Of a stretch of DNA of 45,007 nucleotides, positions 395-37,976 are shown in pieces; the stretch's first letter is position 1, and the number at the start of each line of letters is the position of its first letter. The stretch is from a virus. Both the position numbers and the translations under genes were made by a program. The stretch is taken from IMG/VR virus record IMGVR_UViG_3300021090_000046, positions 1 through 45,007 of that record, one strand, 5' to 3'. A model generated the notes under the pieces. That model made no database searches. It had not been told where the DNA came from and worked only from the letters and a program-made list of their open reading frames with translations.

Positions 395-412
395 AGTGTT
401 TTCTCCAACTTC

Positions 413-655: not shown

Positions 656-670
656 ATTTTCTCCTTTTTT

Positions 671-716: not shown

Positions 717-734
717 CCCCTAAAATTTTTCCCC

Positions 735-1214
735 CTATTTCTTTTCCTGACCTCCTCCTGCGTTACATTCCGAAGGTGTCCCATCCTTTCCTGCATTTTT
801 GTTCTTACAGTCTTTGGAGGGAACGGCGGAGGGAGGAGTCGAAACTGTTTCTGTCGCCTCTGGTTGAGGAGTTTCCGTAAATTCTGTGGGGGGAGTTTGT
901 GCCTGAGATTCCGTAGGGATAGTTCCCGTGACCATTTCAGTAGGCACAATCGAGGAAGTTTTCACCAGATGCTTGTAGGAAGTTTTGGTGGAAAGTTCTC
1001 CAGCATATAGAACACACTTCTGTTTCCACAATTCCTCAAGATGGCTTGCAACGGGCATCACACAGCTTTGTGTGTATTGTATCATGGAAGATTCGGGAGG
1101 AATCTTCGCTGTATAAGCCCAGGCAGGAAGGGTGAGATTTCCCATGACAACAGCCAGAACAACGAACAGAACAGTAATCCCCAAAATTGCTCCGTAAATA
1201 TTCAGTTTTTTCAT
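735..1214 (-). CDS. Exported or membrane-anchored Thr/Pro-rich protein
   Basis: A 159-residue protein starting at the ATG at 1214, which has GGAG 8 nt upstream. The N-terminus is Lys-Lys followed by a hydrophobic core (about residues 8-28) and then LPAWA-YT, an AXA-type signal-peptidase site near residue 34. It may equally stay anchored by an uncleaved segment. Residues about 90-135 are rich in Thr, Pro, Glu and Ser and look like an extended linker. The C-terminus has Cys-containing KDCKNKN and SECNAGGG parts, and two more cysteines lie mid-protein, so disulfides are possible. No enzyme motif is seen. Export plus a flexible linker suggests a role at the cell surface. Confidence 0.6.
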   Translation of the reverse strand: MKKLNIYGAILGITVLFVVLAVVMGNLTLPAWAYTAKIPPESSMIQYTQSCVMPVASHLEELWKQKCVLYAGELSTKTSYKHLVKTSSIVPTEMVTGTIPTESQAQTPPTEFTETPQPEATETVSTPPSAVPSKDCKNKNAGKDGTPSECNAGGGQEKK

Positions 1215-1294
1215 TTCAAAATCTCCTTTCAAATGTCTGTGAATTTTTTGTTCCAGAAAAATAGGTTAATTATCTTTGAAGAAACCTCCTTGGT

Positions 1295-1453
1295 TTAATA
1301 GCAAAGCTCTCGGAAACCAAAAATGTACTGAAAAGTTTCCCAAACCGTCCAGCCACATTCGTAAGTTTTTGGTGCGTTCAACAGTAGCAGGAAAATCAGG
1401 ACAAATGCTACCAGAAGAATCGCCAGCAAAGCTGAAGACTGTCCTTTCTGCAT
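1295..1453 (-). CDS. 52-residue single-TM protein
   Basis: A short gene supported by a strong ribosome site, AAAGGAG with a 7-nt spacing to the ATG at 1453, and by tight packing 2 nt from the stop of the upstream gene. The product starts MQKGQSS, has a hydrophobic stretch over residues 8-26 (ALLAILLVAFVLIFLLLLN), and ends in a roughly 26-residue tail with Cys33 and Cys51 and several aromatic residues. One membrane span is expected, with the tail probably outside. A longer overlapping frame in the same interval lacks a ribosome site and is rejected. No family is recognised. Confidence 0.65.
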   Translation of the reverse strand: MQKGQSSALLAILLVAFVLIFLLLLNAPKTYECGWTVWETFQYIFGFRELCY

Positions 1454-1455
1454 AT

Positions 1456-1632
1456 TTACTCTCCTTTCTTTTTATCTTCTTTGTCAAAAATTTCCTTCAG
1501 GGTATGGAGTTTTTTGATTTCTTCCTGAATTTTTGCCAAAATTTCAAATATGGAATTTCTCGTATCAATCATACGATTAATTATACGAGGTTCTTTGTCA
1601 TTTTTTGTGTGCTTTCTTTTAAAAAAGCTCAT
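1456..1632 (-). CDS. Small charged helical protein
   Basis: A 58-residue soluble protein from the ATG at 1632, with AGGAG 5 nt upstream. It begins MSFFKRKHTKNDKEPR and continues as a heptad-like Ile/Leu/Lys/Glu helix (about residues 22-50), so it probably forms a coiled coil. No family is recognised. It lies in a set of very small leftward genes, with 2 nt to the next gene and 8 nt from the previous one, which implies one transcript and perhaps coupled translation. Confidence 0.55.
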   Translation of the reverse strand: MSFFKRKHTKNDKEPRIINRMIDTRNSIFEILAKIQEEIKKLHTLKEIFDKEDKKKGE

Positions 1633-1640
1633 GGAATCTC

Positions 1641-1787
1641 CTAAAACAGAATATTTCTTAGTTGAAAAAACAGCCAAATTCCAAATCCAAGCGCGAGAAT
1701 AATTACCAGACAGTTAAGTTTGCACCCTATCAAGCGATTATACCAGCGAATTTTCCTAATAAATTTCTCTCTCTGATACAAGGACAT
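1641..1787 (-). CDS. 48-residue single-TM protein
   Basis: Starts at the ATG at 1787, with GGAG 6 nt upstream. The N-terminal half is basic (MSLYQREKFIRKIRWYNR), followed by one hydrophobic span (about residues 24-42, LNCLVIILALGFGIWLFFQL). The positive-inside rule places the N-terminus in the cytoplasm. The frame extends upstream to a longer reading, but that version overlaps the neighbouring gene and has no ribosome site. Function unknown; it is one of several tiny membrane proteins in this cluster. Confidence 0.55.
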   Translation of the reverse strand: MSLYQREKFIRKIRWYNRLIGCKLNCLVIILALGFGIWLFFQLRNILF

Positions 1788-1788
1788 T

Positions 1789-2040
1789 TTATTCTCCAGT
1801 TCTGGTAAGAATTTCCAGAATATCTTCCCTGTAAGTAATGTCCTCATAATCCTTATAATAGTATTCCAGGAGTTCTTCCAAAGTTTCCAATAAGCCAGAT
1901 TCAAAATTTACTCTGACAGGAACTCTGTGGGGAAGATGATGGACTATTTCCACAAAACCTTCCACATCTTGATAATCACTTTCAGGGAGAAAAAGCTCTT
2001 TGGTTTCTTCGTTGTAACTTACTACGATGGATTTTCTCAT
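1789..2040 (-). CDS. Small acidic hypothetical protein
   Basis: An 83-residue protein starting MRKSIVVSYNEETKELFLPESDYQ. It is acidic, with a helical C-terminal half (LLETLEELLEYYYKDYEDITYREDILEIL). The ribosome site is weak (GAG 6 nt upstream). No cysteines or membrane segments are seen. It is not recognised. Its stop is 2 nt from the next start, consistent with operon organisation. Small acidic early phage proteins often bind host proteins, but this is only a general possibility. Confidence 0.55.
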   Translation of the reverse strand: MRKSIVVSYNEETKELFLPESDYQDVEGFVEIVHHLPHRVPVRVNFESGLLETLEELLEYYYKDYEDITYREDILEILTRTGE

Positions 2041-2076
2041 AATAATCTCAATTCTTTTTTCAAGCCGGTTTAGGGA

Positions 2077-2382
2077 CTAAATTATTCGAAGTTTTTCTGG
2101 AGTATTTTCATCTATAACTTTGTAAGATTCTCCGCAGTGACACTCAAAAATAAATTCCCAGCGAATAGTTTCAGAAGTATCACTCAAAGAAATCCAGTTA
2201 TCTTCTTTAACCCGAACTTCTTCACGAAATTCAGAAAAATGATGAATAAGAATCTTCCCATGATTTTTGTGCTGATTAAGCCAATTCATTTCCTGCTGAA
2301 GATATTTCTCAGCCAATGCTTCCAGCTCTTTTTGTTGGGAAATATTTTCTTCCCACAGATCATCTAGAGACTTGTCATTCAT
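2077..2382 (-). CDS. Hypothetical protein with CxC motif
   Basis: A 101-residue protein. The ATG at 2382 overlaps the TGA of the upstream gene as ATGA, a classic translational-coupling junction, so this start is preferred over a TTG further upstream. The N-terminal third is helical and charged. The C-terminal third reads as a beta-rich segment with FECHCGESYKV, a CHC pair that might be half of a metal site. No family is recognised. It is probably co-translated with the preceding 85-residue protein. Confidence 0.55.
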   Translation of the reverse strand: MNDKSLDDLWEENISQQKELEALAEKYLQQEMNWLNQHKNHGKILIHHFSEFREEVRVKEDNWISLSDTSETIRWEFIFECHCGESYKVIDENTPEKLRII

Positions 2383-2636
2383 TTCTGCACCAATTCCTTT
2401 GGACAATTGTCTGAATATAAGGTGGGAATTTCATCGGTAATTTCTTCAAAAATTGCCCAATAAAAATCAGCGGGAGTAAATCTCACATCAATTTCTCTGC
2501 TGAATCTTTCTGCTGCCATTTTCCTAACCTTCTTGACATCCTTTAGCATGGATTTCTCATCTGTTTGCAATGCCAAAAGATTTATTACAGGAATTTTGCA
2601 ACACGGATGACCGGAGGTTACGAATATTTGTTGCAT
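2379..2636 (-). CDS. Hypothetical protein
   Basis: An 85-residue protein starting MQQIFVTSGHPCCKIP, with GAGG 9 nt upstream of the ATG. Its end overlaps the next gene as ATGA. The middle is basic and helical (KDVKKVRKMAAERFSREIDV). No family is recognised. It is the first gene after a Rho-independent terminator at 2672-2695, so it either needs its own promoter (only poor matches were seen) or depends on read-through. Confidence 0.5.
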   Translation of the reverse strand: MQQIFVTSGHPCCKIPVINLLALQTDEKSMLKDVKKVRKMAAERFSREIDVRFTPADFYWAIFEEITDEIPTLYSDNCPKELVQK

Positions 2637-2671
2637 AATTTTTTACCTCATTTTTCTTGGTTTTTGACAAC

Positions 2672-2695
2672 AAAAAACCTCCCGATTTGGGAGGC
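2672..2695 (-). terminator. Rho-independent terminator
   Basis: On the minus strand CCTCCC pairs with GGGAGG across a 5-nt loop (plus coordinates 2678-2694), followed at once by six T residues (2677-2672). It sits 21 nt after the stop of the 197-residue gene, as expected for termination of leftward transcription from the control region. Confidence 0.85.
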
Positions 2696-2716
2696 TAATT
2701 TATATGAATTTTTCTC

Positions 2717-3310
2717 TCACCGGAGTTCGTGTCTTTTTCCCTGGAAAATGTAGTAATATGCCGTACCAGTTTTTTCGAAAATTCCCACTGTAATCGGAAA
2801 ACCTTCTATGGTGATTTCCAGGAAAGTTGCCATGTCTTTTGTGACCTTATTTATAGTAACAATATCCTCTGGAGATAGATGATTAATTTTTTCCATCCAT
2901 TCTTCGAGAATTGGGCTGTCGATATTTTTGGGAGGTTTTACGGAACCTTCCCATGCATTTTTGAAGGTTGGTGCTGGGGAGTTTACATATGATTTTGTAG
3001 TAAAAAATTCCTGTAAACCCGCCGCATCGAAGTCATTATTCTTAAATCCTGAAACCTTACCGGGTAAAGCCTGTAATTTTTCTGTATTAACCCTACCTCT
3101 AAAAACATTCCCCTCAGAATCAATTACTATACTTTCCCCATGCTTTGTTTTTGTCAGAATAGACAGTAAATCCCACGTGGACATAATAAAGCGGGAAATT
3201 CTGGCTAAACCTCTGGATTCATTTCTAGATACTGCTTCCTGGATTTTCTGAAGCTTTAAAGCTGTGTCAATAGCTTTGGCTTTTTCTTCTGAATTTTGTA
3301 TAGTTTTCAT
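2717..3310 (-). CDS. Hypothetical protein, first leftward gene of the control region
   Basis: A 197-residue protein from the ATG at 3310, with AGAGG 6 nt upstream. The N-terminus is a charged helix (about residues 1-45). The middle holds SIVIDSEGNVFRGRVNTEKLQALPG, beta-rich with a conserved-looking turn. The C-terminus (ITIEGFPITVGIFEKTGTAYYYIF) also looks like a beta sheet. No motif or family is recognised. It is followed by a strong terminator and preceded by roughly 800 nt of non-coding, repeat-rich DNA, so it is probably separately transcribed, perhaps early. Confidence 0.6.
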   Translation of the reverse strand: MKTIQNSEEKAKAIDTALKLQKIQEAVSRNESRGLARISRFIMSTWDLLSILTKTKHGESIVIDSEGNVFRGRVNTEKLQALPGKVSGFKNNDFDAAGLQEFFTTKSYVNSPAPTFKNAWEGSVKPPKNIDSPILEEWMEKINHLSPEDIVTINKVTKDMATFLEITIEGFPITVGIFEKTGTAYYYIFQGKRHELR

Positions 3311-3800
3311 TTCTGACCTCTTTTTTACGGATTCCGTAGAATGAATTACTGCTGAAAATTCCAACTAAATTCTAATACTATTCTCAATTAACTTTCGGTG
3401 TCCCTTTAGGGAGTTTTCCAGAGATTTTCCCAGAAAATTTCCTGGAGGGAATCCCTCCAATGCTCCCAATGGGTACGCCTCGACACCCTAAGCTTAAGCG
3501 ATAGACATTAAGACAATATGAGACAATCTTAACAACTATGCAAACACTCATCTAGACAGCCTTAAGCCTATTGTCTGACAACTTATACAGGTATAAAGAA
3601 TTTTATACAGGGAAAATCTGGGAAAGTATGCTCCAAGGGAATCCATAGAATATTGTTAGAGCATATAATGAGAATAAAGGGAAAGTATAGGAATGTAAGA
3701 GAAGCAGGGAGAATAGGGGAATGTAAGAGAATCTTTTTTTTGTACTGCCAAACATATACAACGGACAAATTACCCATATGAGAATCCCCTATAAAAACTA
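3311..3800. promoter_or_regulatory. Non-coding control region with clustered repeats and palindromes
   Basis: No credible gene is seen here. The stretch carries many short repeats: AGACAAT at 3511-3517 and 3521-3527 (10-nt pitch) with the inverse ATTGTCT at 3570-3576; the palindrome TTGTCTGACAA at 3571-3581; CTTAAGC at 3493-3499 and 3561-3567; TTATACAGG at 3583-3591 and 3603-3611 (20-nt pitch); GGGAAAGTAT at 3620-3629 and 3679-3688; GGAATGTAAGAGAA at 3690-3703 and 3718-3731 (28-nt pitch); ACGGACAAAT at 3761-3770. A perfect 7-bp hairpin is at 3443-3459. Such density suggests operators or replication iterons. Minus-strand promoter matches for the gene at 3310 are weak; TATAAA-like boxes in the TTATACAGG repeats are the best candidates. 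Confidence 0.55.
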
Positions 3801-3844
3801 CAATAAAACTCGTCCGATTCGGCAATAAAACTCGTCCGATTCGG
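3801..3844 (+). repeat. Two perfect 22-bp tandem direct repeats upstream of a promoter
   Basis: Positions 3801-3822 and 3823-3844 are identical. Each unit starts CAATAAAACTCG and ends TCCGATTCGG, and holds the near-palindrome CCGA-T-TCGG. The second copy ends 1 nt before the -35 box of the plus-strand promoter at 3846. The 22-bp pitch is about two helical turns, so two proteins would bind on the same face. Activator or repressor binding is the natural inference. Confidence 0.8.
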
Positions 3845-3845
3845 A

Positions 3846-3874
3846 TTGCAATTTTATTTGATATGCTGTATTAT
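3846..3874 (+). promoter_or_regulatory. Sigma70-type promoter for the plus-strand island
   Basis: TTGCAA at 3846-3851 and TATTAT at 3869-3874 are separated by exactly 17 nt, a good match to TTGACA-N17-TATAAT. Transcription would start near 3881 and run into the two plus-strand genes. The tandem repeats abut the -35 box, which points to regulated use. Confidence 0.65.
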
Positions 3875-4113
3875 GTAGTCATGGTTTGGCGTACGGGAAA
3901 TGGATTTTTCCCCTCCCAAATCCCAGCCCATAGCACTACGGACAAATGATGTAACGGACATCACGCCCACGCCAACGCACCCGCCAAAATCCCGCAAGAA
4001 TGGACCTGCCAAGTGAATAGTAGAAAATCTACAAAGGGTAGCAATCCCCATGATTGTTATATGTAACAGCCTGAAACAATAACAGGATGGTACTAAAGAA
4101 AGTGAGTAATCTA
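3875..4113 (+). other. Long untranslated leader of the plus-strand island
   Basis: About 230 nt separate the promoter from the first supported gene. The stretch is visibly richer in G and C than the surrounding phage DNA. It repeats ACGGACA (3938-3944 and 3954-3960, also at 3761) and can form small hairpins (GGGAAA/TTTCCC at 3895-3912, TGTTA/TAACA near 4056-4070). An ATG at 3881, at the predicted transcript start, opens a 22-codon frame without a ribosome site. A riboswitch class could not be recognised. Confidence 0.4.
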
Positions 4114-4485
4114 ATGGCGAAATTTGCATTGACAATTAATGGCGAGAACGTGACCAAATCGCAGAAGACTCTCGAATTGTGGTCAAAACTTGTTGGTACA
4201 CGCAATCCCGGCGCACAGACTCCGGTCATGGCTATTGAACATATCCTGACTGAGAATCCCGGTTACATTGAAACCGTCAAAGCAACCTACAGCGGGAGCG
4301 ACACCCTTGAAGTATGGGTGACAGAAGAGGGTAAAACCTCTCCTGAGTTTGTTGGCGGTAACACGTTCGCCGGATTTGTTGAGAGGATGCAAATTGCATC
4401 CCGTGCCAAATTCTGGATGGGAAATATCCCATCAGCAGAGAAAAAGGAAAGTAAATCGGCTGATAAGGGAGAACTCGAGGTATAA
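4114..4485 (+). CDS. Hypothetical protein of the plus-strand island
   Basis: A 123-residue protein, one of only two supported plus-strand genes. The start MAKFALTINGENV at 4114 has a weak GTGAG ribosome site 7 nt upstream. An ATG at 4087 in the same frame has no better site. The protein mixes beta segments (KFALTINGEN, DTLEVWVTEEG) with a central helix and ends in a charged tail (AEKKESKSADKGELEV). No motif or family is recognised. G+C and codon choice differ clearly from neighbours (many GGC, CCC and GCC codons), which suggests separate acquisition. With its own promoter and flanking hairpins it resembles a moron gene. Confidence 0.65.
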   Translation: MAKFALTINGENVTKSQKTLELWSKLVGTRNPGAQTPVMAIEHILTENPGYIETVKATYSGSDTLEVWVTEEGKTSPEFVGGNTFAGFVERMQIASRAKFWMGNIPSAEKKESKSADKGELEV

Positions 4486-4505
4486 CCTCTCCCACGTGAG
4501 CAAAA

Positions 4506-4531
4506 TCCCCTCCCCGAAATATGGGAGGGGA
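4506..4531 (+). other. Strong 9-bp hairpin between the two plus-strand genes
   Basis: CCCCTCCC (4507-4514) pairs with GGGAGGGG (4523-4530), plus an outer T-A pair, across an 8-nt loop. No T-run follows on either strand, so it is probably a partial terminator, an RNA stability hairpin or a processing site rather than a full terminator. It lies 21 nt after the stop of the first island gene and 40 nt before the second. Confidence 0.6.
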
Positions 4532-4570
4532 ATCACATCAAAACATCAGACAATTGAAATGAGGTATATC

Positions 4571-4675
4571 ATGGCTAAATTACTGCTTTTCGTGTTGTTG
4601 GTTTTGGTAGTATACGGCGTGATCGTGTCAAAATTTGCAGAGGTGGTATTCGTCACGGCGAGGGGATTATTTTAG
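4571..4675 (+). CDS. 34-residue single-TM peptide
   Basis: The ATG at 4571 has GAGG 6 nt upstream. The product is almost wholly hydrophobic: MAKLLLFVLLVLVVYGVIVSK, then FAEVVFVTARGLF, so one membrane span is expected with few exposed residues. It follows the 123-residue gene by 85 nt on the same strand and is probably on the same transcript. Tiny hydrophobic phage peptides can be toxins, lysis regulators or exclusion factors, and the sequence does not choose between these. Confidence 0.55.
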   Translation: MAKLLLFVLLVLVVYGVIVSKFAEVVFVTARGLF

Positions 4676-4718
4676 TCCAGAAAATCTCCAGAGAATCCCC
4701 CCATATCCCACGAATAAA

Positions 4719-4744
4719 ATCCCGCCAGAATTTTTTGGCGGGAT
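4719..4744. terminator. Hairpin terminator between convergent units
   Basis: A perfect 9-bp stem: ATCCCGCCA at 4719-4727 pairs with TGGCGGGAT at 4736-4744 over an 8-nt T-rich loop. Read on the minus strand it is followed by TTTATT, a fair terminator tail for leftward late transcripts that pass the one at 4970. For the plus-strand island it is the first strong stem after the last gene but lacks a following T-run. Confidence 0.55.
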
Positions 4745-4779
4745 GCCCCTGTGTACCTCACAGACTCCTCTACTATATT

Positions 4780-4813
4780 CCCCAAAATTCCCCAAAATTC
4801 CCCAAAATTCCCC
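4780..4813 (-). repeat. Four-run G-tract repeat (G-quadruplex motif) at 10-nt pitch
   Basis: CCCC occurs at 4780, 4790, 4800 and 4810 on the plus strand with identical AAAATT spacers. The minus strand therefore carries four GGGG runs separated by 6-nt loops, which fits the classical intramolecular G-quadruplex pattern. The repeat lies in the non-coding gap between the plus-strand island and the endolysin gene, on the template side of arriving island transcripts. Confidence 0.8.
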
Positions 4814-4969
4814 AAAGTCTCCATAAAATCCTCCTAAAAATGCCGTAAAGATGTCATAAAAACTCCATAAAAATGTTGTAAATATTCCAGCCTTGTCTTA
4901 CCCCCCCCCCATAGGGTGAATAAATTCAGCTTTTGTTTTTCATTAATTGTCCAAAATCGGTTTTTATTT
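4814..4969. other. Non-coding spacer with C10 tract and degenerate repeats
   Basis: No gene is seen. The first part has loosely repeated CCATAAAA/GTAAA units (4818-4885). Ten consecutive C residues stand at 4901-4910, followed by ATAGGGTGAA. Homopolymers of this length are rare elsewhere in the window, and the tract length may be uncertain from sequencing. The remainder is AT-rich. Confidence 0.5.
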
Positions 4970-5008
4970 TAAAAAATAAATAGTTCCCCACGCTTATGAG
5001 GAACTATT
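4970..5008 (-). terminator. Terminator at the end of the late operon
   Basis: AATAGTTCC (4979-4987) pairs perfectly with GGAACTATT (5000-5008) over a 12-nt loop. On the minus strand the stem is followed by TATTTTTTAAAAT. It begins 12 nt beyond the endolysin stop codon and would end the long leftward structural/lysis transcript. Confidence 0.8.
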
Positions 5009-23180: not shown

Positions 23181-23624
23181 TCATAGCCTTTCTTTCTCTT
23201 TTAGTACCACTATTATTCGATTTACGACTGGAATTCCTCTTAATACGATTCTTGAAACATCCATTTCCCGTTCATCTACAATAACAAACTTCGAGCTATG
23301 GATTATTTCCTCCCTTTCGTCCGTATGCATGACCTTTACTGTACAATCCCCATTATCTAACATACCTCCTGTTTCCCAAGCGCGGTTTTCCATTTTCCCC
23401 CACGTAACGTGCCCGGACATTGTAGCACCACTATATGTAGGTATCCAATATTCACCAGAACAAATTATACAGAAAGAATCTGTCGAAGTATTAGTAATTG
23501 GGTCTAGATTGCAAATAGGACAGGAAGTAATGGAATCCACTACATAGAAAGTGACTGGTCTTCCGTCCATGCCTATCATTTCTTCAATTAGCTCTCTTGT
23601 ATTGTCTGGGAATGGTGGCAACAT
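23181..23624 (-). CDS. Zinc-ribbon connector-region protein
   Basis: A 147-residue protein. Cys35-x2-Cys38 and Cys52-x2-Cys55 form a compact zinc ribbon (CPIC...CIIC). The region after it is beta-rich (EYWIPTYSGATMSGHVTWG, CTVKVMHTDEREEIIHSSKFVIVDERE). A small structural protein with such a ribbon between connector genes is plausible as a head-tail joining or stopper protein. It is translationally coupled (TAATG) to the GT4 gene before it. The zinc ribbon is seen directly; the assembly role is inferred from neighbours. Confidence 0.6.
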   Translation of the reverse strand: MLPPFPDNTRELIEEMIGMDGRPVTFYVVDSITSCPICNLDPITNTSTDSFCIICSGEYWIPTYSGATMSGHVTWGKMENRAWETGGMLDNGDCTVKVMHTDEREEIIHSSKFVIVDEREMDVSRIVLRGIPVVNRIIVVLKEKERL

Positions 23625-24814
23625 TACTTACATACCTCTTTAAAAATTTCCGCCCACCTCTTTGCTATTGATTGCCATTGATATTCTGGCTGCAAAAATT
23701 TGGCTAAAGTCTTCTTTGACAACTCTTCTCTTAATTCTTTATCCTGATACAGATGCTCAAGAGAGTCTGCAACTGCTTCTGGAGAAACCAATCTTCCAAC
23801 TGTTTGAGAATGGTCAAAAGTAAAGTCCATAGATGTTTTTATAATCTCACCACAATCTTCAAACAACTCTCTACATGCACTATGGTCTGGAACAATTTGA
23901 GGTGCTCCTGTAATTCCATGTTCTGTACTGATAAGTCCCCACCCCTCTCCCATTCCAGTATTGATACCAACATCGCAGGCATTGTAAATCATATTGAGTT
24001 TCTCTTCTGAAACCCTCTGAATTCCCTGTACAAGACTGGTTAGAAGTAGTCTGTCATCTATTCCATATCTCACAGATATGTATGGAATGTCGATTGCAGC
24101 ATCTCTTGCTCCACAATGCATATATAATTTAACTGTCTTTGGCTTGTTTTTGGCAAATAAAGCAAATCCTGCCATAGTAGTATCGAGTCTTTTTCTGGGC
24201 TGGTTTCTGTTGGCATTGAGAACAAAAAATAAATCTTCCGGCTTTCCCATCTTATAGGCAGCCTCTCCCAAAAGTGCTATTTTAGCCTGTGCTCTAGTTT
24301 CATAAGCCTTATAATAGGTTGAAAAATTCGTACCGTGAGGCATAATTTCTATGTCTCTATCGGGCAGGCACTCTCTTGCCACCTCTTTTCCAAACTTTGT
24401 ATAAGTAAATATCTTTGTTACAATATCAAAATCTTTGTACCACGACTTGTTATGAAATCTTGAATCTACAGGGAAATAGACCACTATTTTTGGGAGGTCA
24501 TTTTTTACATTTTTCTTGATGGCATCAAGGTAATAGCTTATTACCCATGCATCATTTATAAAGAATACCATATCAAATTTTGTGGAATTCAACATGTTGC
24601 AAAGCCTATCAATTCCGTAAACGTTTCCCTGTGCAGTAGATGCGGGATATACTGGAAATCCTAAATTGTGAGGGTCTCCTTTATAGTTTACTCCCAACCC
24701 TGTTATGTCAAACTCGTCTAAATTTGGTATTGTTATGTTATGTAGTACCGTTGAAAATCCAGTAGGAACCACTAAATCTCCTACTACTAAAATCCTTAAC
24801 TTCCTGTTCTCCAT
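23624..24814 (-). CDS. GT4-family (GT-B fold) glycosyltransferase
   Basis: A 396-residue enzyme. Recognisable GT4 features: an N-terminal ILVVGDLVVPTGFSTVLHNI with the Gly-rich acceptor-side loop, MPHGTN near 158, the nucleotide-sugar domain opening FFVLNANRNQPRKRLD near 196-210, and the donor-binding GINTGMGEGWGLISTEHG (about 280-298) with the EX7E-like acidic pair, followed by PQIVPDHSACRELF. It would transfer a sugar from a nucleotide donor to an unknown acceptor. It is embedded, with 1-nt overlaps on both sides, among head-tail connector genes, so it is made with virion proteins and probably decorates the particle. Confidence 0.85.
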   Translation of the reverse strand: MENRKLRILVVGDLVVPTGFSTVLHNITIPNLDEFDITGLGVNYKGDPHNLGFPVYPASTAQGNVYGIDRLCNMLNSTKFDMVFFINDAWVISYYLDAIKKNVKNDLPKIVVYFPVDSRFHNKSWYKDFDIVTKIFTYTKFGKEVARECLPDRDIEIMPHGTNFSTYYKAYETRAQAKIALLGEAAYKMGKPEDLFFVLNANRNQPRKRLDTTMAGFALFAKNKPKTVKLYMHCGARDAAIDIPYISVRYGIDDRLLLTSLVQGIQRVSEEKLNMIYNACDVGINTGMGEGWGLISTEHGITGAPQIVPDHSACRELFEDCGEIIKTSMDFTFDHSQTVGRLVSPEAVADSLEHLYQDKELREELSKKTLAKFLQPEYQWQSIAKRWAEIFKEVCK

Positions 24815-25320
24815 TATGATAATGTTCCTTTCCCATACTCCTCTGCTCCAGGGATGGAATCTCTGTAGCCCGGATTTAATCTCTTTGTAGGTGGTTTAAG
24901 ATACCACAGAAGCTCATTCCAAAGCCTTTCCAATGAGCTGTCCTTCAATCTTCCGCTTTCTATATTGGATACAGAAACTTCTGCATCCCTCCAGCTTCCC
25001 ACACTCCATGACATATTTTCCAATGTACCAGATTGTGTTAGAATTTGAGCCATAATCAAAATAGGAGTTTGGTCCTGCTGTTGAATTACTGGAGGCTCAT
25101 CTATTAAAAACGTGCTATCTGGATAACGAGTTACTACATAGGTAGTCTCATCTATAATATATCTTATTCTCCACCAACGTTGAAGAGACTTTAATGCAGT
25201 AACTAGAGAAACTCTCAACCATGAATCCAGATAGCGATAGGCTGCCGAATCCGTGTCACCGAGTCTAAGTCTTAGTTCTGGTAAAAGAAAATCTAAATCT
25301 GTTACTACATCTATTGGCAT
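24814..25320 (-). CDS. Head-tail adaptor (connector) protein
   Basis: A 168-residue protein. It starts with acidic helix (VVTDLDFLLPELRLRLGDTD) and continues with RYLDSWLRVSLVTALKSLQRWW, the helix-rich layout of gp6/gp15-like head-closure adaptors that bind the portal. The C-terminus ends GYRDSIPGAEEYGKGTLS. Its place, after the capsid cluster and before the other connector genes, agrees. No diagnostic motif exists for this family, so the call rests on layout and position. Confidence 0.6.
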   Translation of the reverse strand: MPIDVVTDLDFLLPELRLRLGDTDSAAYRYLDSWLRVSLVTALKSLQRWWRIRYIIDETTYVVTRYPDSTFLIDEPPVIQQQDQTPILIMAQILTQSGTLENMSWSVGSWRDAEVSVSNIESGRLKDSSLERLWNELLWYLKPPTKRLNPGYRDSIPGAEEYGKGTLS

Positions 25321-25321
25321 A

Positions 25322-25858
25322 TTAGTCCTCTTCGTTTTCTATGGGGTTCTTGGAGGTTGTTTCTTGTGATTGAAGTTCTGAAATTCTAGATTCGATTAGT
25401 CTTGTAATCTTCTCTGACTTTTCCATCTCTTCTGCCAAACCTCTCATTCTAAATAGAACGGCTGTAGAATTAATTTTATTAACAGCACTTGATAGTGCAA
25501 GAAACTTTTTATTAATTATTGCTTTTAATTCATCGTCCGTTGATTGTTCAATGGGCTTTTCTACAGGTTCTGAAATTTCTTTTGCTACATATGGAATTAA
25601 CATTCCAGTAGCAAAATGCTTTTTGTTCACTCTTAAGAAAAATGCATCCTCTCTGGCACTAAATACATTTACAATGCAGGTATCCTCTTTCCTTTTTGGG
25701 TCTCCTTGTAGAATTACGTCCACAGGTTTGTCAAGAAAATTGTCCCATAACTGTACAGCAACTTTTCCCAAGATCGTTTTAATATAAGATTTGAATGGCT
25801 TACCCTCATGTATTGCAGCAAACAATTCATTTCTTCCCAAAGTTGTATTTGAATCCAT
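25322..25858 (-). CDS. Hypothetical virion-associated protein
   Basis: A 178-residue protein. Residues about 1-95 are mixed alpha/beta (FKSYIKTILGKVAVQLWDNF, DTCIVNVFSAREDAFFLRVN). Residues about 105-165 form a helical, coiled-coil-like tail. The C-terminus is acidic (NPIENEED). No family is recognised. The start has AAAGGA 8 nt upstream. It lies between the repeat protein and the adaptor, so a role in the head or neck is expected. Confidence 0.5.
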   Translation of the reverse strand: MDSNTTLGRNELFAAIHEGKPFKSYIKTILGKVAVQLWDNFLDKPVDVILQGDPKRKEDTCIVNVFSAREDAFFLRVNKKHFATGMLIPYVAKEISEPVEKPIEQSTDDELKAIINKKFLALSSAVNKINSTAVLFRMRGLAEEMEKSEKITRLIESRISELQSQETTSKNPIENEED

Positions 25859-25880: not shown

Positions 25881-27653
25881 CTATTTTTTATTTCCCTTAA
25901 AGGAAATACTCGATTCCGATTTACCGGATAGTGTTACAATTTGTTGAACTTTACCCCTCAAAAATACATAAAAAATCATAGTTCCTTTTAGAAAGACTTT
26001 GGAGGCATTTAGAAGAGTTTTTCCTCCCAATCTAACTATATCTGAAATACCCAAAGAGTTCGATATTGAACGAATAAATGTACCAATTCTTGAAACCGTA
26101 TCTGTTATATTTACTATGGTTTCTATAAATACTATTATTCCTGTAAAGATTCCAAGACTGTCTGAAATTTCTATTAAATCTGAAATCTGTTTTAGTAGTG
26201 CTCTGGAAGAAGTATTTATATCAGAAATTCCAATAGTCTCAAAAAACTCTTTTCTAAGACCTCTAGCTGTCAGAACTTCATCTTGAGGTGTTTCAGTTGT
26301 CTGTATATTTCTAAAAAAATTACCTATTCTAGCTACAGTATCCAATATTCCTACCGCATCGAGTATAGTTACAAATACAATCCCAGACAATAAAGATGCA
26401 GAAACGGTATCTGAAATACCCAATGAATTTGCCACACTCTTATAAATTTGTCTCGCTGTATTTACAGAATCTGTAGCCCCCAACGTTGAGGAGATGCTTC
26501 TAGTAGCTGTCAAAATTCTAGAATCTATATCTGAGATGGTTTCACTATCTTGCACAGCTCTCGAAAAATAAACATTTTTTGTGCTATTATCAGTAATTCC
26601 AGATAAGTCTGCCAGATTTCTAACAAAAGATAAATTTCTGGAACTTACATCAGAAATGTCCTCATTATCGGTTACACCTCTAAAAAAAGAAATGGCTTTT
26701 GTAGCAATATCCGTTATTCCCAATGAGTCCTGTATAGATTTTATAATATTTCTTGATGTAGAAAGAGAATCTGTAATTCCTAGAGAATCTGTTATTATAG
26801 CAAATAACTCACTACCTCCTCCCTGCTTTATATAAGAAACCAGGTCTGTAATTCCTAGGGAATCTGCAACCAGTTTTACTATGCTTCTAATATTGCTTGC
26901 AACATCTGTAATTCCAACACCGTCTGCCAAAATCTTTACAAGTGCTCTTAGATTAGAAATGTTGTCTGTTATTACCACCGAATTTGTCAGGGTTTTAGAT
27001 AAATTTCTAAGCTTGGAAACACTGTCTGTTATTCCCAAATTATCTGAAAAAGCTTTGAAAATTCCCTTCGAGTTTGATACACTGTCGGAAATTGCCTCTG
27101 TAGTGGTTATTGCAGCGGATAGTGCCAAGGAATATGTGATTGTTAGTCTCGCACATAAAGTAGTGGAACCATCATATGAAGTCACAGAAGTGTCTCTGGT
27201 CGCTATTGCGCTGTGTGTAGTCATTGCAAAGCCCATCACGCCGTTACTATATGGTCCATAAGACGCATATAATTCACTAACTACTGATGAAAGGTCAGCA
27301 GTATTTACATCTCCGGTTCCAGCATTTGCATTTAACCAGTTTACAAATGCTGTGGTTCTAGCCCTGCTGCTTATATCATTAGACCCAGTAGTAAATTGTG
27401 CTGGACTTGCTATATCAAGACCAAAAATATCTACATCTGGTTCGTCCAAAGTGCTGCTTGTAAATCTAATAGTTAGAAAAGAACTTACTATTGTAGCACC
27501 GGCTGGAATATTTACAGCAGTAAATCTCCATGCGTTCCATACTCCAGCAGTGTCACAATTTGCTAAAGGATTGGCAGTTATGCTAACCGTTGTTCCTACC
27601 TGACTTGCGTCATCGGCAGAGGCTTGAACGGCTCTTGGACCAAATGTAGGCAT
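25881..27653 (-). CDS. DNRLRE-like head protein with eighteen 20-residue repeats
   Basis: A 590-residue protein. Residues 1-178 look like a jelly-roll of DNRLRE type (VNIPAGATIVSSFLTIRF, ATRDTSVTSYDGSTTLCARLTITYS). From 181 to 540 there are 18 repeats with a nearly exact 20-residue pitch: the Asp of an [IL]-[ST]-D-like triplet falls at 190, 210, 230, 250, 270, then after a GGGSE insert at 295-415 in steps of 20, and after a 3-residue insert at 438-538. A Lys or Arg follows ten residues after most of these Asp. The C-terminus (residues 545-590) is hydrophobic then basic. It may be a head fibre or a long decoration appendage. The start has TAGGAG 6 nt upstream. Confidence 0.75.
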   Translation of the reverse strand: MPTFGPRAVQASADDASQVGTTVSITANPLANCDTAGVWNAWRFTAVNIPAGATIVSSFLTIRFTSSTLDEPDVDIFGLDIASPAQFTTGSNDISSRARTTAFVNWLNANAGTGDVNTADLSSVVSELYASYGPYSNGVMGFAMTTHSAIATRDTSVTSYDGSTTLCARLTITYSLALSAAITTTEAISDSVSNSKGIFKAFSDNLGITDSVSKLRNLSKTLTNSVVITDNISNLRALVKILADGVGITDVASNIRSIVKLVADSLGITDLVSYIKQGGGSELFAIITDSLGITDSLSTSRNIIKSIQDSLGITDIATKAISFFRGVTDNEDISDVSSRNLSFVRNLADLSGITDNSTKNVYFSRAVQDSETISDIDSRILTATRSISSTLGATDSVNTARQIYKSVANSLGISDTVSASLLSGIVFVTILDAVGILDTVARIGNFFRNIQTTETPQDEVLTARGLRKEFFETIGISDINTSSRALLKQISDLIEISDSLGIFTGIIVFIETIVNITDTVSRIGTFIRSISNSLGISDIVRLGGKTLLNASKVFLKGTMIFYVFLRGKVQQIVTLSGKSESSISFKGNKK

Positions 27654-27707: not shown

Positions 27708-27932
27708 CTACGCACCTAAAAAGGTAATTTCCCAGTCTACCTGCAATGTGTCTGTAGTAGAAACATCCACAGCGGGAGTAATCTGTGCATATGCAAGATT
27801 ATCTACCGTAGTATTATGAAGAGCTACTTCATCTATTCCGGTAATATTTAAATCACCAGCCTCAAAGACTGCTCTATATTGAGTAACGTTATCGTTTGCT
27901 GCCCCGAATGAGCCTTTTAGTTTTGGATATAT
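27708..27932 (-). pseudogene. Out-of-frame C-terminal half of the structural gene starting at 28255
   Basis: The minus strand here is open in the -1 frame relative to the upstream part, from just after a TGA near 27950 to TAG at 27708. It reads YPKLKGSFGAANDNVTQYRA, then EAGDLNITGIDEVALHN, and ends DTLQVDWEITFLGA. That ending is typical of a phage structural protein family whose members finish with D.L.v.W.itf. Joined at the ATATAT run (27927-27932) it would give a product of about 181 residues. So either two bases are extra in this sequence, or the ribosome shifts here, or the gene is broken. No canonical slippery site is present. Confidence 0.7.
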
Positions 27933-28255
27933 GTTGCATCCATAACCTCAGCAGAACCTGTGGGAGTGTTACAAGCCGTATTTGCCTTTGGAGTTGTGCC
28001 TGTCCATCCAGTTCCTACAGTCATACGACCATTTGTGTTGTCTACTTTTTGTCTTGCGGGTGATGTTGCCATAAGGTCTGCAATAATTGCATCTCCCTGA
28101 TCTGTAACAATGTTATGATTTACAGATACCATTGGGCTTCCACGAAGTCCCAATAATTTTTGGAAAAGATTAGGTTTGTATCTTTTGATATTTCCACTCT
28201 CATCAAATACGGTAGCTGTAACCTTCCCTCTCATTTTTATTTTGTTATTAATCAT
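27917..28255 (-). CDS. Structural protein, N-terminal part (frame-disrupted)
   Basis: As read, a 112-residue protein from the ATG at 28255 (AGGA 5 nt upstream, overlapping the previous stop) to TAA at 27917. MRGKVTATVFDESGNIKRYK and NIVTDQGDAIIADLM, then GRMTVGTGWTGTTPKA, fit a family of small phage structural proteins (VGTG.t.p followed by EaGLhn and W.itf at the C-terminus). The second half of that pattern is present but in another frame (27932-27708). The short form ends MDATYIQN, which looks like a truncated end. It lies in the head module between the Ig-like protein and the repeat protein. Confidence 0.6.
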   Translation of the reverse strand: MINNKIKMRGKVTATVFDESGNIKRYKPNLFQKLLGLRGSPMVSVNHNIVTDQGDAIIADLMATSPARQKVDNTNGRMTVGTGWTGTTPKANTACNTPTGSAEVMDATYIQN

Positions 28256-28262
28256 TTTTTTC

Positions 28263-28610
28263 CTATGCCTTACTATATAAAATCTTAATTGTTCCAGTAG
28301 CAACTGTTGATACTAAACCTTCACTTGTTTTTGAAATCTCACATTCGTGATTATAAACTGCTGGAGCAACGCTTTCAGTGTCTTCCGGGCTTAAGCTAAC
28401 AACTGCTATGTCATTAAAAGCACCGGATACTGTAACATCATCGGCGGTAGTTTTTGTAAGAATGGCTTCTTTGGATGTTTGTTTATAAACCACCCATATC
28501 ACAGTATATGTTGATATATCCAAAGGATTTCCAAACTCGTCTTCAACATTAATATAAATGAGTTTGGAGTCTCCCTGAAACATCTCAAAATTTTGCCCAA
28601 CTTCTGTCAT
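28263..28610 (-). CDS. Ig-like / BppU-N-like small structural protein
   Basis: A 115-residue beta-sandwich-like protein: FQGDSKLIYINVEDEFGNPLDISTYTVIWVVY is the familiar QGD...d.dG.p.dl opening of small phage Ig-like or BppU N-terminal domains. It continues with VTVSGAFNDIAVVSLSPEDTE and ATGTIKILYSKA. The start at 28610 has GGAGG 4 nt upstream. It follows the capsid gene after a hairpin. It may decorate the head or serve as an attachment base for the following head proteins. Confidence 0.65.
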   Translation of the reverse strand: MTEVGQNFEMFQGDSKLIYINVEDEFGNPLDISTYTVIWVVYKQTSKEAILTKTTADDVTVSGAFNDIAVVSLSPEDTESVAPAVYNHECEISKTSEGLVSTVATGTIKILYSKA

Positions 28611-28671: not shown

Positions 28672-29580
28672 TTAGGAAAGTCCACCGATTACATAGATAC
28701 CATCTGCCCGGTCAATTATCATACCGAACTGTTGGTATAGTTCCAAGTACCACTGTGGAGGTGTTGGTCTCATGTCGGTCCATTCTTTTGTTCTTACGTC
28801 ACCGTAAGTAATGAATTCACCAACATTTTCACCAATTACCAATACCTTATCTGTAGGAAGTAGGGCATTGTAGTCCATTGGGTTATCATAAACCTGGTCT
28901 AGGGCTACGATTCTAGCACCGTAATACTTGCCCAAGAATCCTGTAGCCATGATTTCTTTGATGTTATCAGGAACATCTGCTACGTTTGAACCACCATCAT
29001 CCCAGAAAGCACCAAACTTTGTGATTGGTGCTAGGGCTGCTCTGGTTCCAATAACCACTTTCACACCAGAAGTTGTCTGATTGATATGGTCAATGGCATT
29101 TTCCAAAGCCGTAGATGTTAGAGCACCACCAACAGACGTAAAGTTGCTGGGAGTGTTAATTGCTGTCCACACTGTTGAAAGTGCAGTAAATACCTTTCCA
29201 AGATAGTAATCACGCAATTTTGCGCCCATCTCGGTACGAATATCCTCAACTGTTCCTAGCTCACCTGAGGCAAGTTCCCACTCATTGTAAGTCACTTTGA
29301 CATCAGCACCGTCCAACACGTAGTTGATACGGTCTGAAACTGTCAATTCACTGGCAAGATGGATTCTGCCTGGTACTAGGGTACGAACCTTAATTCCCTT
29401 ACGAACTTTCTTTACGAGAGCATCACCGGGATTTAAGCTTCTACTTGTCAACAGTAGAGAAACCATATCAGCCGTAATATGATTAGGCTGAACGTACTCA
29501 ATGATTAATTGAGCAAGAGCCTCGCGCTTGCCTTCCTTTAGCAAAGACGCAATGGCTTCCTTGAATTTTGTTTCATCCAT
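28672..29580 (-). CDS. Major capsid protein (HK97-like)
   Basis: A 302-residue protein in the canonical place after portal, protease/scaffold and decoration genes. The N-terminal helix region (KFKEAIASLLKEGKREALAQL) is followed by the E-loop/P-domain zone (LVPGRIHLASELTVSDRINYVLD), a long helix (GAKLRDYYLGKVFTALSTVWTAI), an A-domain segment (TSGVKVVIGTRAALAPITKFG) and DKVLVIGENVGEFITYGDV, which fits the HK97 fold in order. The ribosome site is GGAGG 10 nt upstream. It would assemble into the icosahedral shell. Whether the N-terminus is cleaved cannot be seen. Confidence 0.8.
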   Translation of the reverse strand: MDETKFKEAIASLLKEGKREALAQLIIEYVQPNHITADMVSLLLTSRSLNPGDALVKKVRKGIKVRTLVPGRIHLASELTVSDRINYVLDGADVKVTYNEWELASGELGTVEDIRTEMGAKLRDYYLGKVFTALSTVWTAINTPSNFTSVGGALTSTALENAIDHINQTTSGVKVVIGTRAALAPITKFGAFWDDGGSNVADVPDNIKEIMATGFLGKYYGARIVALDQVYDNPMDYNALLPTDKVLVIGENVGEFITYGDVRTKEWTDMRPTPPQWYLELYQQFGMIIDRADGIYVIGGLS

Positions 29581-34662: not shown

Positions 34663-35523
34663 TTAGTGTAATTTATTTCTCCAATAATTTATGGTAGAAA
34701 GTTCTTCTTCTCTGGAATCTATTTTTATTGGAGGATTTGCAGTTTCTTTTCCAACTTCTCCACCCCATTTGGAAACATAGTATGATTTATTGTTATCAAA
34801 AGCGGCATTTGTGCTTCCACCACTTCCCTGATTAATGGTTCTACTCCAGAAGTGAAAGAACTTGGCATTTGTTAAAGAGCAGGATTTTATATTTGCTCTG
34901 ACTATCCTATTGGCATAGTCATTATCTATAAAGTAAGCCGGATAAAAAGCTACATCCGTGTATCCTACGCCGTCAAAAACTCCTCTTTTGTAAAGACATA
35001 GATTTTGTATATCTAAAAGTTGCATATGATTTATATCAAGAATGTTTGAATAATCTTTAAATAATTCCCAGGGGCTTGAACCGAAATCGGAAAAAATGTA
35101 TTTATCGCTTTTGAAAAACTTTCTTGCATCTGGAAATTGACTAGCAAAGGCTCTTACATCCACCTGACTTGCACTTATTACCTGATAAGTGCTTTCATCT
35201 GCCAACTTTATTAACGAATCTATTGCGTAGGGATAAGCTACTATGTCATTACCGGCTATAATTAGATTATCATAATTATTTTCCAACCACGCATAATCAT
35301 AAACATCATTAATGGAGCACGGAAATCCCCAATTTTGTGTGTGAACTTTAAATTTTATATCTGGTTCAGTAGCCAGCCAATTAAGGGTTTCTGAATCTCC
35401 TGGTTTCCCAACTACTATGAAAAAGTCTATAGGACTTTCTGTAGTCTTTCTTATTGAATCTACAGTTAATTTTGTAAATGGAGTATTTCCGAAACTTACG
35501 ATTCCTACTAATGTTTTATCCAT
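34663..35523 (-). CDS. GT2-type (GT-A fold) glycosyltransferase
   Basis: A 286-residue enzyme. It starts TLVGIVSFGNTPFTKLTVDSI (nucleotide-binding strand-helix), has NWGFPCSIND near 64-73 and a DxD-like GNDIVAYPYAID near 91-102, and later FIDNDYANRI and KFFHFWSRT, in the order seen in GT2 proteins. It would use a nucleotide sugar with a metal ion. The acceptor is unknown. It overlaps the upstream glycosyltransferase by 8 nt. It sits between the terminase and further sugar genes, so it is part of a decoration cassette. Confidence 0.75.
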   Translation of the reverse strand: MDKTLVGIVSFGNTPFTKLTVDSIRKTTESPIDFFIVVGKPGDSETLNWLATEPDIKFKVHTQNWGFPCSINDVYDYAWLENNYDNLIIAGNDIVAYPYAIDSLIKLADESTYQVISASQVDVRAFASQFPDARKFFKSDKYIFSDFGSSPWELFKDYSNILDINHMQLLDIQNLCLYKRGVFDGVGYTDVAFYPAYFIDNDYANRIVRANIKSCSLTNAKFFHFWSRTINQGSGGSTNAAFDNNKSYYVSKWGGEVGKETANPPIKIDSREEELSTINYWRNKLH

Positions 35524-36391
35524 CTATTATTTCTCTGCACTTTCTAAACACATTGTCATCGTTTTCGTATGAAGACCAGTATTTTTTTATCAGAACAGGA
35601 CTATTAACTACAAAAGATGCTCCTGTAGCTTTATAGGTAAAAGAACCTAATTTTTTATTTCCATTCATACAATTAACAACATTTTGCATATGAACATGAG
35701 GACCGGAATTTCTTCCTATTAGGCATGAACAGTACTCACTAAGGTACGATAATTCTGTCAAATCAAATCCATCACTACTGCAAATTATTTCTCCAGCAGA
35801 CAATATGTTTTCAAAATGAGCTAGTCCATTATTTTGTACAGTTATAAATAATTTATTAGGATACGCTCCAGATAGTCTAAAGATAATAGGATTGAAATTA
35901 AAGTTTTCAGCTTGCATAGATTGACATAATCCATTATCTATCAGTATTTTATCTTCTGGATGAGCTTCCATAAATATTCTTACATTATTTATATCAGGAA
36001 AATAAGAGTAGTCTATTTGAGGCAAATAGTCTATAGGATTTCCGGTTAGTTTTCCTATGCCCAATTTCCTCATTAAATCGTTGTGCATTTTATAAAACTG
36101 TTCCAAAGTTGTACCTATGCCAGGAAGTACATAACTTCCGTCTCTACCTATCCATGTATTAATATAAAGGATTTTATTCTCAATCCATATATCTCTTTCT
36201 GGTTTCATGACATCTGTAACCGGAGTGAATTGGAGTCCTTGAATATCCTTTAAAATTTTTGGGTTTTTTCCGTGTGCATAATAATAAGAGTCAGCATCTA
36301 TTTTTTTCATCCACTCTTTAACAAATTCTCTAGATTCATATACATCGCCTGCCCCAAAATGGCAATAAAATATTACAGCATCATAGCGCAT
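35516..36391 (-). CDS. GT-B fold glycosyltransferase-like protein
   Basis: A 291-residue protein. FYCHFGAGDVYESREFVKEWM resembles the opening of heptosyltransferase/GT9-like proteins. Near residue 230 IGRNSGPHVHMQNV parallels the donor-site pattern G.dSGp.Hla of that group. The central region has Rossmann-like strands (ILYINTWIG, KILIDNGLCQSM, KLFITVQNNG). The catalytic assignment is tentative. It overlaps both sugar-gene neighbours by 8-11 nt, which points to co-translation. The acceptor may be the product of one of the other transferases or a virion protein. Confidence 0.55.
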   Translation of the reverse strand: MRYDAVIFYCHFGAGDVYESREFVKEWMKKIDADSYYYAHGKNPKILKDIQGLQFTPVTDVMKPERDIWIENKILYINTWIGRDGSYVLPGIGTTLEQFYKMHNDLMRKLGIGKLTGNPIDYLPQIDYSYFPDINNVRIFMEAHPEDKILIDNGLCQSMQAENFNFNPIIFRLSGAYPNKLFITVQNNGLAHFENILSAGEIICSSDGFDLTELSYLSEYCSCLIGRNSGPHVHMQNVVNCMNGNKKLGSFTYKATGASFVVNSPVLIKKYWSSYENDDNVFRKCREIIDG

Positions 36392-37103
36392 GTAATATAC
36401 TTTCTATAAAATCTATAGATGGTTTGTTTAGTAAATTTATCAAAGGCTGTTTGGTTGCACCTCCACCAGCAATATGCAACATTTTTATTCTTTTACCTCT
36501 AAGCTCTAAATGGTCCCCAACAGGATTAATTTCCTTCCATAAATCCCAGTAAGTACGTATTCCCTCAATCAAAGATGTTCCCCAATGAACAGGTTTGTCC
36601 TTTGGGTCTAAAATTTTGGTGTTGTATTTTCCAGAATGAAATACCAAGTTGAGGACTCCCTGTTCCTGATAGGGAATTTCTCCCCCCTTTTCCAAACAAG
36701 TTTTCATCCAGTCCTCCATAAAAATTTCTGAGGATACTGAATGAATTCCTGCATTTACATACATAAATTCATCTATTCCAGGTAGAGTAAGACCTGCGTG
36801 AGTGGCACATCTACCGCTATCGCTATTATTTCTTCCCGCTCTTGCGTCTGTAGAATCATCAAATAACTCGTCTATGTTGTCCAAAACTAAAACATCATTG
36901 TCTATATGGGTTACTGTAGAGTATTTTTTAAACAAAGGTAGTTCAATAGTTGGATAAGCGTATGCCCCAAGGTATACTTTCATAAACTCTTCTTTGTTTG
37001 AAACCTCAACGGTAACGTCTGGATGAAAATGCAAAAGAGTTTTAAGCATCCGATTGTGCTCATCAATGTGGTCTATATAGAAGGTTGAGATGCACTTAGA
37101 CAC
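36381..37103 (-). CDS. GT8-like glycosyltransferase
   Basis: A 240-residue enzyme starting at a GTG (37103). VTHIDNDVLVLDNIDELFD (Asp68 and Asp70 form the DxD metal site) is characteristic of GT8 and similar galactosyl- or glucosyl-transferases. YVNAGIHSVSS and EQGVLNLVF follow in the right order, and KMLHIAGGG near 208-216 matches the C-terminal HxxG metal ligand. It would be a retaining sugar transferase using a UDP-sugar. It overlaps the FkbM methyltransferase gene by 31 nt. Confidence 0.8.
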   Translation of the reverse strand: MSKCISTFYIDHIDEHNRMLKTLLHFHPDVTVEVSNKEEFMKVYLGAYAYPTIELPLFKKYSTVTHIDNDVLVLDNIDELFDDSTDARAGRNNSDSGRCATHAGLTLPGIDEFMYVNAGIHSVSSEIFMEDWMKTCLEKGGEIPYQEQGVLNLVFHSGKYNTKILDPKDKPVHWGTSLIEGIRTYWDLWKEINPVGDHLELRGKRIKMLHIAGGGATKQPLINLLNKPSIDFIESILHAL

Positions 37104-37732
37104 TTTTCCATTCCTTCTTTATCTACATAAATATCATTCAGATGTATTCGTTTAACGAAAGTATAGCCACGCTCTTCAAACCATGTACGTTGTTCTGATT
37201 CTTTATGATAATTTTCAATTACTACCACCACTGGTTTCCATTTGTTTATATCTAAAGTGGATAGAACTTTCATTTCAGAGCCTTCTACATCTATAGTAAG
37301 AAAATCTATATGGTTTTGTTTTATTTCATTTTCCATTAACCACTCAAAAGTACGAACATTTACCTGAATTCTTGTTTCAAATTTGTTGTTCATAAAGGGT
37401 TTGTCTATTAAACCAGATTCAGAAGCCTCCCCCCATGTTCCCGCATAATCGTTTGGAATTTTCCAAATAAAAAAATCTACCCCATCTTCATTTTTATCGC
37501 TAACAGCGTACTCTATTACATGCTTTCTATACTGTTTTAGTTTTGGAATACAATGTGGATTAGGTTCTATACAATAAGTATCCCACCCACTCCGTTCAAA
37601 AATCCAACTATTGTTAATCCACAAAGGGTCATGTGCTCCAATGTCCACACATACCCCTTTAAAATCTTTTGGGAACAGGTCTTTTACAAACTCAGCATGA
37701 CCTTCTGTTTCATATCCTAAATCCCGTATCAT
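37073..37732 (-). CDS. FkbM-family methyltransferase
   Basis: A 219-residue enzyme from the ATG at 37732, with AAGGA 8 nt upstream, just after the previous stop. An upstream TTG in frame lacks support. GVCVDIGAHDPLWINNSWIFE is motif I of the family, SGWDTYCIEPNP is the ribose-binding acidic strand, and IDFLTIDVEGSEMKVL is the conserved catalytic-side motif. FkbM enzymes O-methylate sugars or hydroxyl groups. Next to three glycosyltransferases it probably methylates the transferred glycan, which could cap it or hide it from host sensing. Confidence 0.88.
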   Translation of the reverse strand: MIRDLGYETEGHAEFVKDLFPKDFKGVCVDIGAHDPLWINNSWIFERSGWDTYCIEPNPHCIPKLKQYRKHVIEYAVSDKNEDGVDFFIWKIPNDYAGTWGEASESGLIDKPFMNNKFETRIQVNVRTFEWLMENEIKQNHIDFLTIDVEGSEMKVLSTLDINKWKPVVVVIENYHKESEQRTWFEERGYTFVKRIHLNDIYVDKEGMEKCLSASQPSI

Positions 37733-37733
37733 A

Positions 37734-37976
37734 TTATCTATCCTTATCGTAGGATTTACTTGTTGGGGAGCCGTCCTCAAATCCAAATATTTTATCTAAT
37801 GCTCTAATAAGTTTATTGCGTCTAGCATTTAAAGCGTGTGTATCCTGCGAAGCCTGAAATCTCTGCTCTTTTGTCAGTCTCTCATCAAATATTTTTTCTT
37901 GCGCCATAAAACATTTCATGTCCGTTGTAATAAGCTCGTCTATTAGTATTCCAGGTGTTTTAGTCTCAATGCTCAT
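37734..37976 (-). CDS. Small conserved-looking phage protein upstream of packaging genes
   Basis: An 80-residue helical protein. GILIDELITTDMKCFMAQE, and then ALNARRNKLIRALDKIFG, follow a pattern I have seen in small phage proteins near terminase genes (E.I....k......e followed by LN.rRn.LI.AiD), but no function is known to me. The ribosome region is odd: GGATTAGGATTAGGA makes three tandem purine-rich sites just before the ATG. Its stop is 1 nt before the FkbM gene. Confidence 0.6.
   Translation of the reverse strand: MSIETKTPGILIDELITTDMKCFMAQEKIFDERLTKEQRFQASQDTHALNARRNKLIRALDKIFGFEDGSPTSKSYDKDR

Follow-up and report, generated by a model that had tools for sequence, protein, structure and literature searches.

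In Bacillus phage phi29, the head fibre gp8.5 is a multi-domain protein with a repeated stem of three-stranded helix-turn-helix architecture (PMC6542822). Fibres of this type are trimers on the capsid that have a helical stem and aid attachment; gp8.5 is mounted by its N-terminus, and its gene comes immediately after that of the major capsid protein. T4 Hoc and the adhesins of gut phages, which are built of Ig-like domains, are optional, modular and surface-displayed, with the capsid-binding domain of Hoc located at its C-terminus (PMC7602432, PMC13370021), while flexible head fibres make the first host contact in Agrobacterium phage 7-7-1 (PMC12796354). Of these, gp8.5 and Hoc are the nearest functional precedents for the protein reported here, which is a member of neither group.

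The window, by which we mean the whole 45,007-bp virus record analysed here, carries its virion genes on the minus strand. One of them encodes a protein whose repeat units share the core G-I-[TS]-D, termed GITD below, and the features used in the comparison are as follows.

25881..27653, minus strand: GITD-repeat protein of 590 aa (open reading frame and translation, 18 Asp positions, relative L001).
27120..27653, minus strand: its N-terminal domain, residues 1-178, probably beta-rich and of no named family (76% identity to the N-terminus of L001; also in L144).
26019..27104, minus strand: its repeat array, residues 184-545, with 18 units of 20 residues each (periodicity and Asp positions).
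25884..26018, minus strand: its C-terminal module, residues 546-590 (common to L109 and to L005, the latter with other repeats).
27708..28303, minus strand: phrog_5417-family partner gene, interrupted by a frameshift near 27920 (phrog_5417 match).
28263..28610, minus strand: small protein encoded by the third cassette gene (phrog_1084 match).
28672..29580, minus strand: major capsid protein, bordering the cassette on the left when read in transcription order (phrog_2522 and relatives).
25322..25858, minus strand: core gene that comes immediately after the capsid gene in cassette-free sisters (sister comparison).
24814..25320, minus strand: core gene, putative head-tail connector by position (conserved gene order).

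The placement of the gp8.5 gene just behind the gene for the major capsid protein recurs in the window, and the window gene, like a gp8.5-type gene, is both capsid-adjacent and optional, whereas other GITD carriers have it placed elsewhere. There is, however, no sequence similarity between the two proteins (best BLASTP E = 1.0 over 11 residues), the gp8.5 stem repeats at about 26 residues rather than 20, and no phrog_5417 partner is listed beside the gp8.5 gene. The mounting may also differ, since gp8.5 docks by its N-terminus, whereas the conserved end of the GITD protein is the C-terminus. With Hoc it shares optional occurrence, modular build and a C-terminal end taken as the docking end, but its putative stalk is a 20-residue repeat instead of Ig-like domains, and no Ig family match was found in the window protein with Pfam or NCBIfam. 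The capsid fibres of phage 7-7-1 are likened to it by description; PMC12796354 gives no structure for them. Elsewhere in the window, a glycosyltransferase-like gene inside the connector region (23624-24814) is kept in nearly all sister genomes, more sugar- or methyltransferase-like genes (named by eye only) stand beside the terminase at 34663-37786, and about 5 kb at positions 1-5000 hold only short open reading frames on both strands, the remainder being tightly packed.

A sequence-only reading of this stretch had proposed a head-module protein with 18 nearly exact 20-residue repeats. The open reading frame is real and begins with ATG, but lies on the minus strand. Asp was found at all 18 residues that this reading had listed (190, 210, 230, 250, 270, 295 ... 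415, 438 ... 538), together with both phase breaks (+5 and +3 residues), and the basic residue expected ten positions after Asp is present as Lys or Arg in 14 of 18 units; apart from D+10, Lys and Arg are nearly confined to D+4 and D+6. The Asp is preceded by [IA][ST] in 16/18 units, the exceptions being ILD438 and PQD458. Over residues 181-545 the self-identity at lag 20 is 0.258, compared with a maximum of 0.160 in 2,000 shuffles at lags 1-60, and seven [ILVAP][STLQ]D triplets keep the same phase modulo 20 across both breaks (maximum of 4 in 5,000 shuffles). The description "nearly exact" thus holds for the spacing but not for the sequence, as the mean pairwise unit identity is 0.24 and the maximum 0.55. 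This low identity, together with the absence of a 60-bp tandem array at the DNA level, indicates that the unit duplications are old. By automatic chain count the window protein has 12 units, by eye 18, and with at least five in-register units of the G-I-[TS]-D type it belongs to the GITD-repeat family as defined here. It has no signal-like N-terminus and is not predicted to be disordered.

Relatives were sought with a DNA pattern for GITD-16 residues-GITD. It matched 67 viral stretches, and after inspection 48 proteins, the window's included, had at least five in-register units, nearly all of them in uncultivated viral contigs. In 84,980 prokaryote species (one genome each), the same pattern matched 86 stretches, two of which were accepted: L172, a contig of phage origin within a Sedimentisphaerales MAG, and L180, a Nitrosarchaeum protein that has GMTD/GITD units and begins with a signal-like N-terminus; the rest were almost all chance matches or other low-complexity proteins. 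Diverged members are undercounted in these searches because the pattern requires two exact GITD cores. No coding-strand match to the repeats was found among 50,697 annotated phage records, and tblastn matches to PhiCh1 and Aminay were rejected, as they run antisense to the repeat genes of these phages; ORF34 of the Natrialba phage PhiCh1, a tail fibre of an archaeal virus, likewise contains short repeats in tandem, but its own repeat is unrelated to GITD. L221 was also rejected as a family member, and a viral scan with the L058 array matched only itself. In the collections searched, the GITD family is mainly viral, and its viral members come from uncultivated viruses only.

Profile searches against Pfam, PHROGs, NCBIfam and PDB sequences returned no named family for the repeats, and matches of the window protein to Ribosomal_S5_C, TAF, RP1-2 and ser_rich_anae_1 were regarded as chance or low-complexity. 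Homologues that are enzymes, which the sequence-only reading had named as a refutation, did not appear, while its expectation that the repeat number changes among relatives was borne out, with 7+17 units in L001 and about 58 in L139 beside the 12 or 18 of the window. The protein with about 58 units has about 1,560 aa and adjoins a second GITD protein (L139/L241, IMGVR_UViG_3300041402_000782), and the terminase of this contig matches the window lineage. That reading had also pointed to similar repeats on cell surfaces, and the Nitrosarchaeum protein (L254-L256) does consist of 20-residue units that share the G-[IM]-T-D core; it differs from the window protein in being a long, secreted-looking protein of a cellular genome bin with a signal-like N-terminus, known from short contigs. 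Within the units, acidic residues at positions 0 and 14 tend to vanish together (r 0.48), a covariation driven mainly by L058/L142 and L063/L104, which could reflect a shared metal site or ancestry alone.

The N-terminal parts of these proteins are exchanged between relatives. L001, a viral contig, encodes a 950-aa relative whose first 178 residues are those 76% identical to the window protein, followed by 7 units (automatic count), an inserted domain of about 200 residues and another 17 units; the insert resembles ConA/LamG domains by eye, but Pfam, Laminin_G_3 included, gave no match. The same N-terminal domain occurs in L144 and, weakly, in the GITD neighbour of L100, but is missing from L109, although the flanking genes of L109 match those of the window more strongly than the flanking genes of L001 do. 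Laminin_G_3 was found by Pfam in the GITD proteins of L089, L094 and L120 and in a protein adjoining GITD in L257, but not in the window protein. For the window N-terminal domain itself, no match was obtained in Pfam, NCBIfam or PDB sequences, and AlphaFold2 gave pLDDT values mostly of 30-43. The proposal of a DNRLRE-like jelly-roll found no backing, as the NCBIfam model NF033679 did not match (the L001 N-terminus scored 12.9 bits against a cut-off of 34) and Pfam gave no DNRLRE/CBM96 match for the window protein at E<=1. In contrast to the exchanged N-termini, the last 45 residues of the window protein have related counterparts at the C-termini of L109 and L005, even though L005 has a different, 18-residue repeat. 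In L094, a weak phrog_1084 domain (E 0.0027) is fused at the C-terminal end, whereas the window phrog_1084 protein is encoded by a separate cassette gene. Because the N-termini are exchanged, the C-terminal module is shared and L094 carries this fusion, we infer that the C-terminus is the docking end and the N-terminus the binding end.

The capsid protein of the window was used as query for the collection of sister genomes, which yielded 80 related loci. The capsid-to-connector interval was spanned by 42 contigs, and 32 of these have only the core genes there, some with one small extra open reading frame. The remaining 10/42 have an insertion, in eight cases with a tandem-repeat protein (units of 18, 19, 20 or 22 residues) and in four with GITD; these figures are counts, not rates, since sister contigs are non-independent samples. 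Other proteins in the same slot are a pectate-lyase-like beta-helix protein beside GITD (L058), a GDSL esterase (L011), and Big_12 Ig and Kelch proteins (L082). GITD is absent from 17 of the 20 sister-lineage records searched whole, several of them 80-97 kb long. The gene is considered accessory because of these 17 records and the 32 core-only contigs. The other repeat families that fill the region downstream of the capsid gene in sister phages (18, 19, 20 and 22 residues) are likewise unnamed.

Unnamed tandem-repeat proteins in sisters: L001:888-1706; L005:4364-6691; L021:12560-15259; L036:5491-6456; L047:3201-4994.

The phrog_5417 partner accompanies GITD in 13/15 wide contexts, compared with 7/80 capsid-selected loci, and was absent from all ten sister records that were searched whole; L109 and L005, both short contigs, carry repeat proteins without a detectable partner. 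Judged from gene content, the GITD-repeat protein, the phrog_5417 partner and the phrog_1084 protein appear to form a movable and optional cassette. Its mobility is suggested by its presence in an unrelated phage with a Mu gpT capsid and in carriers with other capsid types. In the window record the phrog_5417 gene is frameshifted near 27920, whereas orthologs such as L001:4436-4996 are intact, and the window copy may therefore be misassembled or decaying.

The description as a head gene fits part of the carriers. In the window the gene has the major capsid gene on one side and the head-tail connector genes on the other. In the unrelated phage, whose capsid is of the Mu gpT type and whose portal belongs to the lambda family, the genes run capsid - LamG - GITD - partner - neck, and in L240, L243, L248, L249 and L252 the gene lies close to capsid or protease genes from other families; other carriers have capsids of the phrog_752, 212, 1357 and 777 type. 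On the other hand, GITD is found upstream of the terminase in L241 and L253 and after baseplate-type genes in L250, and in L244 (sister phage G012) nothing occupies the head slot, GITD and the partner lying instead between tail-tip genes and the endolysin. These positions argue for a virion protein without settling head or tail. The head-module position may thus be incidental, with the protein serving as a tail- or neck-mounted accessory fibre or as part of a branched receptor-binding apparatus, a reading that we hold to be possible but somewhat doubtful. L244 and L250 speak for it, as does L058, where the gene adjoins a pectate-lyase-like beta-helix protein of a kind common in tailspikes, but the gene stands beside capsid or head-protease genes in the window, in L172 and in several other phages, and the gene for gp8.5 is likewise capsid-adjacent. 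Taken together, an accessory virion adhesin is well supported and a head fibre is likely, the head being the somewhat favoured site; a site on the tail or neck would be tentative, and one outside the virion improbable.

The sequence-only reading had envisaged a rigid solenoid or helical rod. AlphaFold2 predicted strands at low to moderate confidence, both with five sequences as input (pLDDT 66-81 over most of residues 211-500) and with 60 diverse seven-unit arrays (pLDDT about 60), and Foldseek reported weak similarity to beta-helices, so that a beta-solenoid or beta-meander stalk is a candidate, although we put it at rather less than an even chance. The even unit lengths preferred among the repeat proteins (18, 20 and 22) lend it mild support. 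However, neither model found a fold match in the PDB at E<=0.001, and for repeat sequences AlphaFold2 reportedly yields beta-solenoids that are confident but unrealistic, a bias that is reported to be weaker in AlphaFold3 and ESMFold (PMC11795689); the concern applies foremost to perfect repeats, whereas GITD units are diverged. The sequence profile, which lacks beta periodicity (beta moment p about 0.89 for the family profile), resembles instead that of an amphipathic helix and separates into two faces on a helical wheel. The helix hydrophobic moment at 95-110 degrees has p values of about 1e-4 (family) and 0.0008 (window), 31/48 proteins have their hydrophobic peak at 100-110 degrees, and Pro hardly occurs at unit positions 0-11. 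A common short linker between two helices is Gly - hydrophobic - Ser/Thr - Asp. We therefore lean slightly towards each unit forming one amphipathic alpha-helix closed by Gly-Ile-Thr/Ser-Asp within a helical-repeat stalk, which would be reminiscent of the helix-turn-helix stem of gp8.5. The strands in both AlphaFold2 models stand against such helices, as do the many units rich in Thr, Ser, Val and Ile, and solenoid turns could also yield a hydrophobic spacing of 3-4 residues.

We consider it probable, and the best explanation of these observations, that the protein is an optional, virion-displayed attachment fibre encoded on a movable cassette. The 20-residue units would form its stalk, whose length would shift through gain or loss of units, and the variable N-terminal domain would be presented to the host surface, as would the lectin-like domains that are inserted or encoded next door in relatives. 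The C-terminal module probably docks the fibre to the particle, helped by the partner genes. Laminin_G_3 in relatives, together with the pectate-lyase-like, GDSL esterase, Big_12 Ig and Kelch proteins in the sister slot, suggests an adhesin. The GITD protein would be carried on the virion and would bind host glycans. Against a fibre stand the lack of a recognised binding-domain match in the window N-terminal domain, the tail-end cassette of L244, the frameshifted partner in the window record, and L109 and L005 with no partner detected on their short contigs. The accessory distribution and the secreted-looking Nitrosarchaeum protein with similar units would also suit a moron-type gene, whose product is not a virion part but a secreted or cell-surface protein of the infected cell or lysogen. 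We regard this as improbable, because the gene is co-oriented with and packed inside the virion gene block, the window protein has no signal-like N-terminus, and both the partner gene and the C-terminal module common to relatives speak for a role in assembly. The exact unit spacing had raised the idea of a length-defining head ruler or spacer; as most sisters with the same core head genes lack the gene, and the unit number varies widely, this idea was dropped as very improbable.

The functional class of the proposed attachment fibre is a known one, while the repeat family is unnamed in the libraries searched. Tentatively, the GITD units may represent an undescribed repeat fold that serves as interchangeable stalk in a transferable adhesin cassette (stalk, binding head and phrog_5417 partner), head- or tail-mounted in many unrelated uncultivated phages and shared with archaeal surface proteins. 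Extra phage fibres are hard to spot from sequence and few structures are known, and the searchable GITD signature with its travelling partner gene would provide a handle for optional phage adhesins in metagenomes. The cassette would also offer a small, expressible system for the study of how virions carry a variable-length stalk whose binding head can be exchanged.
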